Positions 21,030-61,007 of a DNA stretch of 64,000 bases are shown here, piece after piece (the stretch's first letter is position 1; each line of letters starts with the position of its first letter). Below the pieces are notes generated by a model. It did not search any database. It had not been told where the DNA came from and saw only the letters and a list, made by a program, of their open reading frames with translations. The position numbers were made by a program, and so were the translations under genes. The stretch spans positions 116,487,074 through 116,551,073 of the forward strand of contig NC_081840.1 of NCBI RefSeq assembly GCF_963259705.1. Reading direction: 5' to 3'. The DNA comes from Myotis daubentonii. Its lineage: Eukaryota; Chordata; Mammalia; Chiroptera; Vespertilionidae.

Positions 21030-22272
21030 GCCATGTGCAGTAGGAGTCTCGCACCACCCGAGTGTCACTGAAGAGCTCTGACACCGAGACCTGTGGCTGT
21101 TGTGGGTCAGTGGGTGCCACACACTCCAAGAATCAGAGTCACTGGTGCTCAGTGCAGCCCCGTGTTCACACCTGGAATCAGGGACCCTGCATGTGCCATG
21201 CTGAAAAAAAAGTCCCTGCAGGCATGCGCTGAAAATCAGAGTCCCCTTGCACACACCAGGAGTCAAAGTCCCTGTGTGCACACTCGGAGAAGCAAGTATC
21301 AGAGTCTCTGTTGCTTGGTGCGGCCTCACACTGAGAATCAGGGTCCCTGTGTGTGCGTGCGCTGAGAATTAGAGTCACTGGCACTAAGTGTGTGTGCACT
21401 GAGAATCAGGGATCCTGTATGCACATGATGACAGAGTTCCAGCGTGTGCACGCCAAGTGTCAAGTCACTGGTGCTCAGTGCTGCCTTTTGGGGCATTGGG
21501 CTCAGGACGCCTACGCGCTGGATATGCACAACTGTGCTGTCCGGTGGTGGCTGGCAGCTGTGAATTGGGAAGACTACGTTTTTGCTTCCAGGACCTTGCA
21601 CCCTTAGTTGGATTCGCACGCGACCAGTGGCAGTTCAAAGAGGCACCCAAGAGCCATTTGCCAGGGCGGAGCATTCAGAGGGTTCTTGGCGCTGAAGCTG
21701 CACAACCCGCGGTGTCTGTGGTCCCAGATTCTACTGCCGGGGTGTGCTCCCTTGTTTGGATACAAGTGCGCCCAATGGAGGCTCACAGTGGCACCCAAGA
21801 GCGGCCTTTGGGGTGGTGGGCTCAGGAGGCCTGCGCACTGGAAAGGCACAACTGTCATGTCCAGAGGTCAGCAGCCAGGGAGGAGGAAGTCACACTTACT
21901 GCTGCGGGAGCCGTGCACCCTTGGAGGTGGAAGTCCTAGGGTTTGCAGGTCTGTGGGCAGGGCATTTTGACTGGAGTGGCTGCAGGTTCGCGGGCAGTGT
22001 CAAAGGCCAGCCTGGGTGGTGGTACTGATGAGTTCCTAGAAGAGGCTGCTCTCCCTATCAAGATGGCGAAGGCTCTGTGCCCTCCCCAGGCAGCCCGGGG
22101 AGTGCCCACAGTGGTGGTAGGTGCACCCTGTCCAGGAGAGACTGGTCTGCCAGCCTCTGATACTCCTGCCAGATTTAACTGTCCCTCCCTCACTCACCAC
22201 CACACACTTTCCTTTCACCCACTAACTCACACGCCCTCTCCCTCACCTTCCATCCTGCCAGCCGCCATCTTC
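21030..22272 (-). promoter_or_regulatory. LINE-1 5'UTR/promoter with internal tandem modules
   Basis: GC- and CpG-richer than its surroundings. Blocks recur: 'gggctcaggacgcctacgcgctgg' (about 21498) returns as 'gggctcaggaggcctgcgcactgg' (about 21818), offset about 320 bp. 'agaggcacccaagagcc' (about 21640) returns as 'agtggcacccaagagcg' (about 21787), offset about 147 bp. A second set of shorter repeats built on 'gaatcagagtcactg' and 'gaatcagggtccctg' fills 21120-21420. The 5' tip carries the YY1-type site GAAGATGGCGGC. ORFs across it are composition artefacts. Confidence 0.75.
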
Positions 22273-23926: not shown

Positions 23927-24555
23927 TCCTATCTAATAAAAGAGAAAAATGGTAAGTGGCGTACGACCGCTACCATTCCCATTGGCTAATCAGGGTGATA
24001 TGCAAATTAATTGCCAGCCAAGATGGCGGCCGGCAGCCAGGCAGCTTGAAACTAACATGAGGCTAGCTTGCTTCAGTGACTGAGAACTCCAACATTCCCC
24101 GCCTGCCATTGCAGGCCTCTGAGCTGCAACTCTAAGCAACTATGTAACAAATATAGAAGCTAAACAAAACCCAAGAAACCAGCTTTAGTCCGCCGGGCTT
24201 CAGCCAGCAGGATCGCAACATTGTAAGCAAAGGCCAGAAACCGACTTTCAGCAGCAGAGGCCTAAGAGCTGGAGCCAAGCCTCAAGCTAAAGCTGGCCCA
24301 GAATAAAAAAAAAAAGAAAAAAAGGAGCGGTTGGGAGCTTCAGTCACTCCCAGCCTGACAACAGCCCTCAGGCCCTCACCCAGACTGGCCAGGCACCCCA
24401 GTGGGGACCCCCACCCTGAAGGGTGTGTGACCAGCTGCAAACAGCCCTCATCCCCTCATCCAGGCTGGCCAGGCACCCCAGTGGGGACCCCCACCCTGAT
24501 CCAGGACACCCTTCAGGGCAAACCAGCCAGCCCCACCCATGCACCAGGCCTCTAT
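23927..24555 (+). mobile_element. Non-autonomous Helitron, second family (promoter-like cassette)
   Basis: The 5' end TCCTATCTAATAAAAGAG and 3' end 'gcaccaggcctcta' mark the boundaries. The body keeps the family order: 'ggctaatcaggg', 'atgcaaat', then CAAGATGGCGGC at 24019-24030, then an A-rich tract 'aataaaaaaaaaaag' and two copies of 'aggcaccccagtggggaccc'. It is followed with no gap by the next Helitron. Confidence 0.88.
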
Positions 24556-25235
24556 TCTATATAGTAAAAGGGTAATATGCTTCCCAGCACTGGGATCAGC
24601 GGAGCCACAAGGCCTGCCGGCACCGGGATCAGCGTGACAGGGAGCAGCACCCAAACCCCCTGATCGCCCTGCGGCTCTGTGTGTGACAGGGGAAGGCGCC
24701 CCAACCTCCCTATCTGCCCTGCTCTGTGCCTGATAGGGGGGAGCTCCCCAACCCCCTGATCGCCCTGTGGCTGTGTGTGTGACAGGGTGCTGCGCCCCAA
24801 CCCCCCACCCCTGCCACGGGCCCTGCTCTGTGTGTGATGGGGTAGAGCCATAACCTCCCCATCGGCCCTGCCCTGAGTGTGACAGTGGCAGCACCCCAAC
24901 CCCCTGATCGGCCCTGCTCTGTGGGTTATAGAGGGCAGTGCCCCAACCCCCTGATTGGCCCTGCTCTATGCGTGACAGGGGGTGGTGCCACAACCTCCCC
25001 ATCGACCCTGCCTTGAATGTGACAGGGGATGGTGCCCCAACCCCCCAATCGGCCCTGCTCTGAGCCCGACCAGGGGCTGCACCTAGGGATTGGGCCTGCC
25101 CTCTGCCACCCGGGAGCAGGCCTAAGCCAGCAGGTCGTTATCTCCCAAGGGTCCCAGACTGCGAGAGGGCACAGGCCGGGCTGTGGGACCCCCCTTTCCC
25201 CTGAGTGCACAAATTTTTGTGCACCGGGCCTCTAG
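24556..25235 (+). mobile_element. Non-autonomous Helitron with internal minisatellite
   Basis: The 5' end TCTATATAGTAAAAGGGTAATATGC and the complete 3' end 'gcacaaatttttgtgcaccgggcctctag' define it. The interior is a tandem array listed separately. It abuts the preceding element. Confidence 0.9.
24630..25075 (+). repeat. Minisatellite of about 46-51 bp units, about 9 copies
   Basis: Units start around 'gtgacagggg' and continue 'gccccaaccccctgatcgg', then 'ccctgctctgtg'. Starts are seen near 24636, 24687, 24731, 24781, 24836, 24880, 24926, 24974 and 25021. Spacing varies between about 45 and 55 bp. ORFs on the minus strand (up to 184 codons) are products of the array. Confidence 0.8.
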
Positions 25236-25590: not shown

Positions 25591-25830
25591 CTATAGGCCC
25601 AATGCACTTAATTCGTGCATGGGAGGGGGTGTCCCTCAGCCCAGCCTGCACCCTCTCACAATCCAGGTCTGCTGGTTTATAACCACTTGCCTGCCTGATT
25701 GCCCCTAACCATTCCTGCCTGCCAGCCTGATCACCCCCTAAATGCTTCCCTGCTGGCCTGATTGACACCTACCTGCTCCCCTGCCAGCCTGATTGCCCAC
25801 AACTGCCCTCTCCTGCTGGCCTGATTGCCC

Positions 25831-27156
25831 ACATCTTGTGGTGGCCATCTTGTGGCAGCCATCTTGTGATGGCCATCTTTTGGCAGCCATCTTGTGGTGG
25901 CCATCTTTTGGCAGCCATCTTGTAATGGCCATCTTGTGGCAGCCATCTTGTGGTGGCCATCTTGTGGCAGCCATCTTGTAATGGCCATCTTTTGGCAGCC
26001 ATCTTGTGATGGTCATCTTTTGGTAGCCATCTTGTGATGGCCATCTTTTGGCAGCCATCTTGTGATGGGCATCTTTTGGCAGCCATCTTGTGGTGGCCAT
26101 CTTGTGGCAGCCATCTTGTGATGGCCATCTTTTGGCAGCCATCTTGTGGTGGCCATCTTGTGGCAGCCATCTTGTGGTGGCCATTTTTTGGCAGCCATCT
26201 TGTGGCGGCCATCTTGTGGCAGCCATCTTGTGATGGCCATCTTTTGGCAGCCATCTTGTGGTGGCCATCTTGTGGCAGCCATCTTGTGCTGGCCATTTTT
26301 GGCAGCCATCTTGTGGCGGCCATCTTTTGGCAGCCATCTTGTGGCGGCCATCTTTTGGCAGCCATCTTGTGGCAGCCATCTTTTGGCAGCCATCTTGTGG
26401 CAGCCATCTTTTGGCAGCCATCTTGTGATGGCCATCTTGTGGTGGCCATCTTTTGGCAGCCATCTTGTGGCAGCCATCTTGTGGCAGCCATCTTGTGGCA
26501 GCCATCTTGTGATGCCCATCTTGTGGCAGCCATCTTTTGGCAGCCATCTTGTGGCGGCCATCTTGTGGCAGCCATCTTGTGGTGGCCATCTTTTGGCAGC
26601 CATCTTGTAATGGCCATCTTGTGGCAGCCATCTTGTGGTGGCCATCTTGTGGCAGACATCTTGTGATGGCCATCTTTTGGCAGCCATCTTGTGGTGGCCA
26701 TCTTTTGGCAGCCATCTTGTAATGGCCATCTTGTGGCAGCTATCTTGTGATGGCTATCTTGTGGCAGCCATCTTGTGGTGGCCATCTTTTGACAGCCATC
26801 TTGTGGTGGCCATCTTGTGGCAGCCATCTTGTGATGGCCATCTTTTGGCAGCCATCTTGTGGCGGCCATCTTTTGGCAGCCATCTTGTGGCAGCCATCTT
26901 TTGGCAGCCATCTTGTGATGGCCATCTTGTGGTGGCCATCTTTTGGCAGCCATCTTGTGGCAGCCATCTTTTGGCAGCCATCTTGTGATGGCCATCTTGT
27001 TGCAGCCATCTTGTGGCAGCCATGTTGTGATGGCCATCTTGTTGCAGCCATCTTGTGGCAGCCATGTTGTGATGGCCATCTTGTGGCAGCCATCTTGTGG
27101 CAGCCATGTTGTGATGGCCATCTTGTGGCAGCCATCTTGTGGTGGCCATCTTGTGA
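25831..27156. repeat. 14-bp minisatellite, about 94 copies, YY1/TISU-like unit
   Basis: The basic plus-strand unit is CATCTTGTGGCAGC. The minus-strand reading is GCTGCCACAAGATG, which contains AAGATGGC once the next unit is joined. Variants change the middle (GTGGCAGC, GTGGTGGC, GTGATGGC, TTTGGCAGC) but leave the CCATCTT core nearly constant. Length drift is very rare; one shortened unit is near 26287 ('ggccatttttggc'). Because 14 is not a multiple of 3 and no rotation of the unit contains a stop, all frames stay open. This produces ORFs of up to 493 codons that are not genes. Confidence 0.95.
27010..27118. repeat. 42-bp higher-order repeat at the end of the 14-bp array
   Basis: The variant CATGTTGTGATGGC occurs at 27021, 27063 and 27105, exactly 42 bp apart. 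The same order of neighbours lies in between, so a block of three 14-bp units was itself duplicated. Confidence 0.85.
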
Positions 27157-27198
27157 TGATGTCATGCATGACACCACCTAGGCTTTTATTATAATGGA

Positions 27199-28624
27199 TA
27201 ACCTCCATATCTTTTTCCATATGACCAATTTTAAACCTACTTTTGCCCACCCCTATATATATTCATAACACATATACATTACATATATACCCATATATAT
27301 GCACATATATATTCACTTGTACATAAACTTTTATTATATTAATATTGTGTATCCAAATAAGCAGTTAGCTCATATTTTATATGTTATTTTAAAATTTGTA
27401 TAATTGGACTGCCTCTTTCTTATTTAACTCATTAATGTTTTATAAATGCCAAGGGGTCGAGATGTAAATATTGACACTTTGGTTATTCATTTCTAGTTTC
27501 ATAACATTATGGTGAGGGAATTGGTCTATGTCATGGTACATTTCGGAATTCAGTTTTTAAATCTATTTTGTGTTCAATTCTTTTAATTTTTCAGGGCTGT
27601 TTAAAATTAGTATATCCTATCAAATATACATTATAATATATATACTAATCATACTTACTTAATAAACTATAATAGTTTATGTTTCCTGTTATAGATTAAG
27701 ACTTCTTTATTGTCTTCCACCAATATTGCATTTCTATCATTTTCTCCTGATATTTTCATTAGTTTTAGCTTTATACATTCTGATATTACATAACTAACAG
27801 ATATGCACAATTAAAAATCTTCACCATGCACCAAAATAGTTTAATTAATATAGCGATTTTATTTTTTCCTAATTTTATTTTTGCATTGTTTTGTGAGTAT
27901 AAGTTAATTCTGCTATCTAACTTTTTCATAGGTTTTTTTGTGTGTAAACAATCATAGTCATTTTTTTTTAGATTTATGTCTTGCAAACCAAAACTATAAA
28001 CAGGTTTAATAATAGTGCTTACCTCATAATCATATAGAGATTGAGAAAATGCATATTAAATTCTTAATGCATTCTCAGTGTATGGCAGACATGCAATAAA
28101 CCTTGCTATGATGTATGTTATTTAAAGTTAATTATTATGATCAATATCAGCATATTTTATTCATTCTTGCTATTAGTTTGTTTTCTGTGATTACCAAATG
28201 ATCTATACTTTCTTCTTTTTACATAATCCAATAATTTATAATTTATTTTTCATGATTTATGCATTTATATATATAAAATGTATTGGGAGCTTATATTTCA
28301 CTGCTTATATTTTCATCAGTATTTTTTCTAAATTTTGAAATTAATAATAATAATATATCTTTTATTCCACTTTAGGTAAAATTAAGCACTTAACATTTTT
28401 TACCAAATATTAACTCATGTCCTTGTCTTTGTTAAAATAAACATATACCTGTTATAGTTTATACAGTTAAGAATTGAATTATACATTTGTTGTTTCTAAT
28501 GAACAGTTTTTTAAATGTGCTTGAATTTGAGCAAGAAAATCATTCACATTTAACTACATATTTAATTGTCTTAATATTTCATTGTTCTATCTTTGCAGTA
28601 ATAGCAAACATTCCCTATATCTCA
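27199..28624. other. AT-rich intergenic, nothing recognised
   Basis: About 1.4 kb, with a TA/CA-rich patch at 27255-27320. No gene or nameable repeat. Confidence 0.55.
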
Positions 28625-31370: not shown

Positions 31371-32020
31371 TACACTAATAAAAGACAAACATGCAAATTG
31401 ACTGTACCTTCACTATGCCTTAAGCCACACCTACCAGCCAATCAGAGGAACTATAAGCAAATTAACCCAACCAAGATGGCGGCTGGCAGCCATGGAGCTG
31501 GAGCAAGCAGGAGGCTTGGTTGCCCTAATGATGGAGGAAGCCAAGCTTCCCGCTTGCCACAGCGGGCTCTGAGTTCCACTCAAAGAAACAAAGTTTCAAT
31601 TATAGAAGGTAAATAAACCCCAGATACCTGCTTTCAGCTGGCCTTGGCCATGGAGCTGGAGCGAGCAGGAGGCTTCCTTCCTGCCTGCCCTGGCCGGCTC
31701 TGAGCTACACTGAAGGCAACAAAGTTTCAATTATAGAAGGTAAATAAATCTCAGAATAAAAAAAAAGAAAGAAAAAAAGGAGAGGCTGGGAGCTTCTGTC
31801 GCCGGGGGGCTTGGCCAGCCTGAAAATGGCCCTCAGCCCCTCACCCAGGCTGGCCAGGCACCCCAGTGGGGACCCCCACCCTAAAGGGGGTGTGACCAGC
31901 CTGCAAACACCCATTAGCCCCTCACCCAGGCTGGTCAGGAACCCAAGCAGGACCCCCACCCTGATCCGAGACACCCTTCAGGGCAAACCAGCCAGCCCCC
32001 ACCCATGCACCAGGCCTCTA
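31371..32020 (+). mobile_element. Non-autonomous Helitron, second family (promoter-like cassette)
   Basis: The 5' end 'tacactaataaaagac' and 3' end 'gcaccaggcctcta' bound the element. It carries 'agccaatcagagg', 'aagcaaatt', CAAGATGGCGGC at 31472-31483, and a repeated block 'gagctggagcaagcaggaggctt' / 'gagctggagcgagcaggaggctt'. The next Helitron begins at the following base. Confidence 0.88.
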
Positions 32021-51610: not shown

Positions 51611-52290
51611 TATGGCCCAGTGCACAAAATATTCGTGCACGGTGGAGTTGGGGGGTTTCCCTCAGCCCGGCCTGCACCCTCTCGAATCTGGGACCCCTCG
51701 AAGAATGTCCTACTGTCGGTTTACAGGTATCGGACATCCCTCTCGCAATCCAAAACTGCTGGCTCCTAACCGCTCACCTGCCTGCCTGCCTGCCTGCCTG
51801 GTTGCCCCTAACCACTCTGCCTGCCAGCCTTCTCGCTCCCAATTGCCCCCAGCCGCTGACCTGCTTGTCCCCAAATGCCTCCCCCGCCAGCCTGATCACC
51901 CCCAACTGCCTCCCCTGCTGGCCTGCTCACCTCCAACTGCCCCCTCTGCTGGCCTGCTCACCCCCACCTTCCCTCCCCACTGGCCTGCTCTCCCCCAACT
52001 GCCCCCCTGCTGGCCTGCTCACTCCAAATTACCCATCCCCGCTGTCCTGATCACCTCCAACTGATCCCCACCGATGGCCTGCTTGCCCCCAACTGGCCCC
52101 GCTGCTGGTATGCTTACCCCTAATGGCCCTGCCCTCCATCAGCTTGATTACCCACAACTGCCATCCCCACTTGGCCTTTAATTGCCTCTACCTCAGCCCT
52201 GCCACCATGGCTTTGTCAAGAAGAATGTCTGGAAGGTCTCCTGGAAGGTCTCCCAGTCTAATTAGCATATTACCCTTTCATTAGTATAGA
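51611..52290 (-). mobile_element. Non-autonomous Helitron with internal tandem repeats
   Basis: It begins 'ctatggcccagtgcacaaaatattcgtgcac' (3' end and hairpin complement). It ends 'attagcatattaccctttcattagtataga'. It sits inside the LTR described separately. Its interior has a repeat array at about 51880-52150. Confidence 0.85.
51880..52150 (-). repeat. Degenerate minisatellite of about 31-34 bp, about 9 copies
   Basis: Units of the type 'cccccaactgccccctctgctggcctgctcac' with variants follow each other. They produce overlapping proline/cysteine-rich ORFs (51612-52064 and 51802-52050) that are not genes. Confidence 0.75.
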
Positions 52291-59454: not shown

Positions 59455-60158
59455 GTTGAGAACCAAGATGGCGGCATAGGTTAACGCCGGAGTTTGCTGC
59501 TTTGAACAACTACTTCAAAAGTGAAACTAAAACACGGAACGGACATCACCCAGAACCACAGGAACGCTGGCTGAGTGGAAGTCCTACAACTAGGAGGAAA
59601 GAGAAACGCACACGGACACTCAGAGGAGGCGCAGTGCTGAAGTCAAATTCTGAGGTGCGGAGTGCGCAGAGCGGGCTGGCGGCGGAGGGCGCGGTTGTTG
59701 TTTTCAATCGGGAGGGAGTCGCAGACTCTGAGCACCAGATACGGGCGAGTCCTTAGGGACCCAGACTCAAACGGGAGAATCGGGACTGTCTGGCTTCGGT
59801 CAGAACGAGGGCAGCTTTCTCTCTGAGCTTTGCAGCGGGTGCTGGGACTCAGAGAGGCAGAGCCCCTTGGGACAGGACTGAGAGCCGCCATAACTGCTCT
59901 CTCCGGCCCACCCTGTTGATCCTGTGCGACCCGCCCTGCCCAAGCCCTGCACAGAGGCATTTGCCGGATAGCCTCAGGCAAAGGCTAGATTAGCACCTCC
60001 CTAGAGGACAGAAGTTCTCTCACTGCTGACACAGCTGATTCTCATAGCCACTTGGCCTGGAGGTCAAACCCTCCCTGGAATTAGCTACAACAATCAAGAT
60101 TTAACTATAAGACTTCGAACAAAGACCACTAGGGGGTACACCAAGGAAGCATAACAAA
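59455..60158 (+). promoter_or_regulatory. HAL1 5'UTR with internal promoter candidate
   Basis: GC-rich with many CpG (for example 'gagtgcgcagagcgggctggcggcggagggcgcggttg' near 59660-59695). It is headed by CAAGATGGCGGC. In LINEs this position binds YY1 and sets transcription start; here that is by analogy. Confidence 0.65.
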
Positions 60159-61007
60159 ATGCGGAGACAAAGAAACAGGACAAAATTGTCAATGGAAGAT
60201 ATAGAGTTCAGAACCACACTTTTAAGGTCTCTCAAGAACTGTTTAGAAGCTGTCGATAAACTTAATGAGATCTACACGAAAACTAATAAGACCCTCGATC
60301 TTATATTGGGGAACCAACTAGAAATTAAGCATACACGGACTGAAATAACGAATATTATACAGACGCCCGACAGCAGACCAGAGGAGCGCAAGAATCAAGT
60401 CAACGATTTGAAATGCGAGGAAGCAAAAAACATCCAACCGGAAAAGCAAAATGAAAAAAGAATCCAAAAATGCGAAGATAGTGTAAGGAGCCTCTGGGAC
60501 AGCTTCAAGCGTACCAACATCAGAATTATAGGGGTGCCAGAAGATGAGAGAGAGCAAGATATTGAAAACCTATTTGAAGAAATAATGACAGAAAACTTCC
60601 CCCACCTGGTGAAAGAAATGGACTTACAGGTCCAAGAAGCGCGGAGAACCCCAAACAAAAGGAATCCAAAGAGGACCACACCAAGACACATCATAATTAA
60701 AATGCCAAGAGCAAAAGATAAAGAGAGAATCTTAAAAACAGCAAGAGAAAGAAACTCAGTTACCTACAAGGGAATACCCATACGACTGTCAGCTGATTTC
60801 TCAACAGAAACTTTGCAGGCCAGAAGGGAGTGGCAAGAAATATTCAAAGTGATGAATACCAAGAACCTACAACCAAGATTACTTTATCCAGCAAAGCTAT
60901 CATTCAGAATTGAAGGTCAGATAAAGAGCTTCACAGATAAGGAAAAGCTAAAGGAGTTCATCACCACCAAACCAGGATTATATGAAATGCTGAAAGGTAT
61001 CCTTTAA
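60159..61007 (+). CDS. HAL1 ORF1 protein (L1 ORF1p-like RNA-binding chaperone), intact
   Basis: Uninterrupted 282-codon frame from ATGCGGAGACAAAG to TAA. By homology to L1 ORF1p it should trimerise, bind RNA in cytoplasmic particles and chaperone nucleic acids. Visible parts: a charged helical N-terminal half (about residues 15-115) suited to a coiled coil but without an obvious long leucine zipper; an RRM-type domain (about 118-205, starting 'NIRIIGVPEDEREQDIENLF' and including 'TPRHIIIKMPRAKDKERIL'); and a C-terminal domain (about 206-275, 'IRLSADFSTETLQARREW', 'LQPRLLYPAKLSF'), ending 'LYEMLKGIL'. It is shorter than human L1 ORF1p (338 aa). No stop or frameshift is seen, unlike every other ORF1 in the window. 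The start was chosen because the same ATG context opens copy A. Confidence 0.93.
   Translation: MRRQRNRTKLSMEDIEFRTTLLRSLKNCLEAVDKLNEIYTKTNKTLDLILGNQLEIKHTRTEITNIIQTPDSRPEERKNQVNDLKCEEAKNIQPEKQNEKRIQKCEDSVRSLWDSFKRTNIRIIGVPEDEREQDIENLFEEIMTENFPHLVKEMDLQVQEARRTPNKRNPKRTTPRHIIIKMPRAKDKERILKTARERNSVTYKGIPIRLSADFSTETLQARREWQEIFKVMNTKNLQPRLLYPAKLSFRIEGQIKSFTDKEKLKEFITTKPGLYEMLKGIL

Follow-up and report, generated by a model that had tools for sequence, protein, structure and literature searches.

A YY1-like 14-bp minisatellite inside a non-autonomous Helibat of Myotis daubentonii

The Helitron at 25591-27198 and its internal array

The window analyzed here is a 64,000-nucleotide stretch of the Myotis daubentonii genome (contig NC_081840.1, positions 116,487,074 to 116,551,073), which harbors on its minus strand, at 25591-27198, a non-autonomous Helibat-type Helitron with a long tandem array inside. 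At the 5′ boundary, an A precedes the terminal TC of the element (A followed by TCCATTATAATAAAAGCCTAGG), and the 3′ boundary consists of GGGCCTATAG followed by T, that is, ATAG joined to T, so the limits proposed in the earlier note were found to be right. Read on the same strand from the 5′ end, the element comprises the LTS (27156-27198), which begins with TCCATTATAATAAAAGCCTAGGTGG, resembles that of other copies and has its first 27 nt matched at loci carrying short arrays; the array itself (25841-27155), delimited by TRF and by unit cutting; a partial final unit, CACAAGATGTG, left as the tail of the unit cutting at 25830-25840 and bordering the RTS module; and the RTS (25591-25829), composed of degenerate repeats of approximately 31-32 bp of the GGCCAGCAGGGGAGGGCAGTTG type (TRF rows 25688-25830 and 25743-25833). 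The 3′ palindrome ATGCAC-GAATTAA-GTGCAT, read directly from the sequence, lies at 25602-25620, 11 nt from the 3′ end.

In Helraiser, which was built from the bat Helibat1, TC is joined to A, CTAG is joined to T and a 19-bp palindrome sits 11 nt upstream of the end, as reported in PMC4778049. The element of the window shares the 5′-TC joined to A and a palindrome (ATGCAC/GTGCAT) placed at the same distance from its end, but its 3′ terminus is one substitution away from CTAG (CTRR), with the following T present. The Helibat assignment was retained because many other fetched copies end in CTAG or a near form, and the ATAG of this copy is read as decay of CTAG. A terminal sequence shared across the family was also found, with an LTS-like string (at most four mismatches, anywhere in the locus) present in 31 of 33 short-array loci. 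The best match to the first 27 nt of the window LTS showed 2-7 differences in 28 of these 33 loci, 9-11 in three and 8 in two that belong to another element type, as well as 8 in the C4 locus described below. The RepHel transposase, expected of autonomous members only, is not carried by the element, whose 1,608 bp cannot accommodate a coding sequence for the Helraiser transposase, 1,496 aa in length (PMC4778049); the element is considered non-autonomous. A CRE in the LTS beside the units, suggested by a string that looked like TGACGTCA, was dropped as a candidate, an exact CRE being present in just two of 31 LTS. Elsewhere in the window, TRF reported a Helibat-like 31-bp tandem repeat of the RTS type with 9.6 copies (51820-52120) and a 47-bp tandem repeat with 8.9 copies (24634-25062).

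TRF placed the array at 25832-27155, with a period of 28, 47.3 copies and 89% matches. Cutting on the minus strand from 27155 down to 25841 yielded 94 complete units, one of them 13 nt long, in addition to the partial unit (the initial cutting, which included the flanks, gave 97 rows, three of which were flank or partial), and the previous estimate of about 94 units of 14 bp on this strand is thereby borne out. The commonest unit, CACAAGATGGCTGC, accounts for 37 of the 94, while AAGATGGC is intact in 83 and AANATGGC in 88. Units lying two apart are 89.1% identical versus 79.6% for adjacent ones, and when the unit order was shuffled 1,000 times the two-apart identity averaged 85.0% (sd 0.9, maximum 88.5); the period of 28 returned by TRF arises because unit types alternate. 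Additionally, the longest exact internal repeat is 106 nt long, its two copies lying 35 units apart, compared with at most 78 nt in 12 shuffles. Minisatellites have units of roughly 10-60 bp, and this array exhibits both the tandem units and the internal duplications by which they are recognized.

The observed/expected CpG ratio is 0.05 in the array and 0.20 in the whole window, and the value of the array suggests long methylation. At unit positions 12-13, TG was counted 52 times, CA 36, CG five and TA only once, against 20.9 TA expected under independence. This excess of TG and CA, together with the near absence of TA, is the pattern left when a single ancestral CG decays on one strand or the other.

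Identity and variation of the unit core

It had been claimed that the unit consists of a core of low variation and a variable linker. In terms of raw entropy the contrast is present, since core positions 4-11 range from 0 to 0.35 bit and lack any common dimorphism, while linker positions 3, 12, 13 and 14, all dimorphic, range from 0.85 to 0.99 bit. However, only these four of the six linker positions carry the contrast, with positions 1 and 2 showing 0.40 and 0 bit, respectively. Five positions (A2, A4, A5, A7 and T8) are invariant in the window array; the possibility that they are special was rejected, given that the same positions vary in the long array of contig C4.

A different picture emerged from rare variants, counted after the frequent letters at the four dimorphic positions had been excluded, an exclusion chosen after the data had been seen. 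In the window array, rare variants are as frequent in the core (11/752) as in the linker (8/564), with an odds ratio of 1.03 (p=1). In the C4 array the core is the more variable part (43/1368 versus 15/1026, p=0.010), whereas the array of contig C18 leans in the opposite direction (3/312 versus 8/234, p=0.06), in a count where the cells of an amplified core-breaking form, AAGAATGC, were classed as common and hence excluded. When the three arrays were pooled, 57/2432 in the core stood against 31/1824 in the linker (odds ratio 1.39, p=0.16). Among 40 Helibats anchored on their RTS, 30 of which have a terminal unit, the core initially appeared protected relative to linker positions 1-3 (8/240 versus 20/90, p=4e-7), but this advantage was gone once five units of the TCA subfamily were removed (8/200 versus 5/75, p=0.35). 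Since rare variants are equal in core and linker, and since the spread of the linker amounts to four common dimorphisms, two of them due to CpG decay, the apparent conservation of the core needs no selection. The raw entropy contrast reflects which variants got amplified, not protection of the core. The inference of function drawn from core conservation was thus not sustained, the amplification of a core-breaking form in C18 also speaking against it, even though the rare variants of that array lean the other way.

Regarding the identity of the motif, units were scored against the YY1/TISU consensus CAAGATGGCGGC. A mean of 9.99 of 12 positions matched over 93 units, versus a mean of 6.07 (sd 0.67, maximum 8.57) in 200 arrays with permuted unit columns. 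The YY1-like core described earlier is real, with GCCATNTT, the YY1 core, occurring 88 times in the window array, always in the same orientation and within 1.3 kb. The fuller YY1 consensus CCGCCATNTT, as quoted in PMC4363909, occurs nowhere in the window array and twice in the C4 array, while strict TISU (SAASATGGCGGC) was absent from both strands of the window array and ATGGCGG from all 94 units. The presence of 88 GCCATNTT cores with neither CCGCCATNTT nor TISU indicates that the units are YY1-like rather than TISU.

Such a concentration of adjacent GCCATNTT sites in a single orientation could, in principle, recruit YY1 and allow the array to operate as an enhancer, a silencer or a looping anchor. 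Precedents are offered by the HSE clusters of Caenorhabditis Helitrons (PMC6927752) and by the YY1 sites of the Peg3-DMR (PMC6193732). However, the full consensus is missing from the array, its core is unprotected from rare variants and its CpG depletion would be the product of long methylation. YY1 binding is described as accompanying hypomethylation, although a direct block by methylation is disputed (PMC4363909). A bound YY1 platform is, from what the sequence indicates, unlikely, while weak or occasional binding of YY1 by the array is possible and would be incidental.

The other functional proposal was that of tandem TISU initiators, in which transcripts would begin within the array and use its ATGs. 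The intact unit does read AAGATGG, with a purine at -3 and a G at +4, and long open frames traverse the minus strand, such as one of 493 aa at 25769-27250. However, positions 5-11 of the TISU motif, from the ATG onward, are reported to be needed for transcription and to be used in translation as well (PMC2518114), and the strict motif and ATGGCGG are precisely what is lacking here, so the claimed TISU match had to be abandoned. The three Pfam hits of the 493-aa frame fall under the curated cut-offs and, because the commonest unit is stop-free in all minus-strand frames, the open frames are regarded as a by-product of the repeat; a coding array was rejected on these same grounds. Initiation from the array would, therefore, be extremely improbable.

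The seed unit and the long arrays in the genome

Genome searches covered one 2.13-Gb assembly, the one containing the window. The commonest unit, CACAAGATGGCTGC, occurs 4,157 times genome-wide (2,003 + 2,154), while its reversed form, a weak control because it contains two CpGs, has no occurrence. All 48 sampled CACAAGATGGCTGC places, which correspond to 47 elements located on contig C1, showed one or more Helibat features under permissive matching with no null, namely a 5′ end in 44, a 3′ end in 43 and an RTS module in 33. An anchor independent of the core, a 30-mer of the RTS, led to similar elements: among 40 of its 235 places, AAGATGGC was found within 200 nt upstream in 34, with 0-5 units in each Helibat.

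Triples of the core at 14-bp spacing were found at 323 places (52 plus and 271 minus), 62 of them in the window, 82 in C4, 15 in C18 and two in C23. As the window and C4 left much of the minus-strand surplus unaccounted for, a third array was sought, and it was located in C18. From the first 100 triple places, 34 non-window loci were obtained, comprising 33 short arrays, whose best run is of 3-5 units, and one long array. Two unit-type patterns, fully listed with 58 and 67 places, clustered at the window, C4 and C18, with a pair at C23. After these four locations are set aside, 110 minus-strand places remain versus 52 on the plus strand and, given this excess, there may be additional arrays whose unit spectrum differs.

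The search for further copies of the array revealed two long ones besides that of the window. The C4 array (C4:86382305-86384707) has 173 units, 171 of them whole, and lies in a Helibat of the same body type as the element of the window; its CpG is intact in 76 of the 171 units, far above the window array, which indicates that it is probably younger or less methylated. The C18 array (C18:12952016-12952565) contains 39 whole units inside a Helibat (12951608-12952606) that has a different 3′ body, and AAGAATGC is present in seven of the 39 according to position counts. All three long arrays are found in Helibats and closely follow the LTS.

This shared position would be expected if a single array had been spread by transposition, with the three long arrays being its copies. 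However, their unit spectra differ, with TG/CA and a 28-bp period in the window, CG/TG/CA in C4, where CGT units are numerous and the 28-bp order is lacking, and CG/CA with AAGAATGC in C18. Moreover, the 3′ body of the C18 element is distinct and both body types have relatives with short arrays. Such a single origin is, in our judgment, very unlikely, although decay of one old array retains a slight chance as the source of all three.

The reading we favor, to which we assign a probability of about 0.82, is that the array is a neutral minisatellite, grown from a seed already present in Helibats through recurrent slippage or unequal exchange. The earlier note had itself raised a neutral minisatellite as an alternative, and this proved the better reading, considering that rare variants affect core and linker alike and that a core-breaking form was amplified in C18. 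The seed is directly observed, as the 14-bp unit is present in one to few copies near the LTS of many Helibats. Its growth would have occurred by replication slippage or unequal exchange, and the differences in unit spectrum, higher-order pattern and body type suggest that the three arrays expanded separately from this common seed. Hairpins formed every 28 nt in single-stranded DNA may have assisted slippage during single-strand stages. Four 112-nt single strands, taken from the arrays of the window and C4, folded better than dinucleotide shuffles, with z values of -3.35 to -5.38; the window array forms a regular hairpin of 23 nt with a 5-nt spacer, totaling 28 nt, while good folding is seen in the C4 array too, which lacks the 28-bp order. 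In this minisatellite, the YY1-like core would have been inherited from the seed, and the array would have no selected function.

Strict YY1/TISU motifs in other Helibats and relation to known systems

Strict matches to CAAGATGGCGGC are found in the window outside the array. Two of them, both on the plus strand, lie in a second (24019-24030) and a third (31472-31483) Helibat-like 5′ region, and a further match, GAAGATGGCGGC, is located at 22261 on the minus strand, being the fourth of the set. The remaining one, at 59464 on the plus strand, precedes an L1 ORF1-like frame with Pfam L1 domains (60159-61007, plus strand) and is probably a YY1-type site of an L1 5′ UTR.

An exact 20-mer, CAAGATGGCGGCYGGCAGCC, used as a tag for Helibat 5′ regions of this type, occurs 9,704 times genome-wide (4,878 + 4,826), while its reversed form, a weak control owing to its CpG richness, has no occurrence. 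The first 20 copies listed, all on C1, were taken. Under the first rule, a Helibat 5′ end was recognized in 18 of the 20, CCAAT in two and a form of the octamer in 16. When the rule was loosened post hoc, the 5′ end was found in all 20, with the strict motif at 92-93 nt in 18 copies and at 103 nt in two; 19 copies had ATTGG or CCAAT and 18 had TGCAAAT, mostly before the strict motif. Because these copies are related and were picked by the exact motif, conservation of the motif among them is not evidence. For scale, 587 human genes are reported to have the TISU motif (PMC2518114), and the exact 20-mer is approximately 16 times as frequent.

Captured promoters, derived from 15 genes and present in 4,690 copies, are reported for bat Helitrons (PMC4778049). 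A tentative proposal, which we regard as rather unlikely, is that Helibats spread a compact promoter-like cassette across this genome, in which an inverted CCAAT box and TGCAAAT accompany a strict YY1/TISU motif located some 92 nt from the 5′ end. YY1 would bind a fraction of these copies, and the arrays would represent runaway amplification of a related seed, bound by YY1 where unmethylated. If true, a transposon would have given its host thousands of YY1-type sites.

Regarding known systems, the element resembles Helibats, the Helitrons of vesper bats, both the autonomous Helibat1/Helraiser and the non-autonomous HelibatN, in its 5′-TC, its insertion between A and T, its palindrome 11 nt from the end and its shared terminal sequence, but differs from them in its 94-unit internal array and in ending one change away from CTAG. 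Rolling-circle elements with central tandem arrays, such as the oyster CgHINE, have been described (PMC9659126, which also cites the Drosophila DINE-TR1); in contrast, the element of the window is a Helibat, its unit lies near the LTS and the long arrays seem to be uncommon expansions, not a central repeat found throughout the family. The Caenorhabditis Helitrons with HSE clusters similarly gather many copies of one transcription-factor motif, and a link with heat-shock genes is reported for them (PMC6927752), whereas the bat array offers a sequence motif in which constraint is not seen. The Peg3-DMR, an imprinting control region, also presents tandem YY1-type sites, with 10-15 sites and a tandem-repeat structure in mammals (PMC6193732), while the 88 sites of the bat array match the consensus only in part, lack its CG and lie in DNA poor in CpG. 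The array unit shares AAGATGGC with TISU but does not have the GGC that follows ATGGC.

In the open-licence literature, covered mostly as titles and abstract starts, neither this array nor the occurrence of YY1/TISU motifs in Helitrons of bats was found to be reported, and a term search for YY1 gave nothing in a paper on Myotis TEs (PMC9446614). Since tandem arrays in Helentrons (PMC9659126) and motif clusters in Helitrons (PMC6927752) are already known, a Helibat bearing a minisatellite is of a known kind.

Host regulation can be rewired when a transposon brings a transcription-factor motif with it. In this genome, a YY1-like motif is carried by a single Helitron lineage at thousands of sites, and at least three of its copies have a long array. 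With 39, 94 and 171 whole units, these arrays constitute a natural series in which it can be asked whether motif density alone makes a regulatory site or stays silent, and the strict YY1/TISU motif of other Helibats makes this question testable genome-wide.
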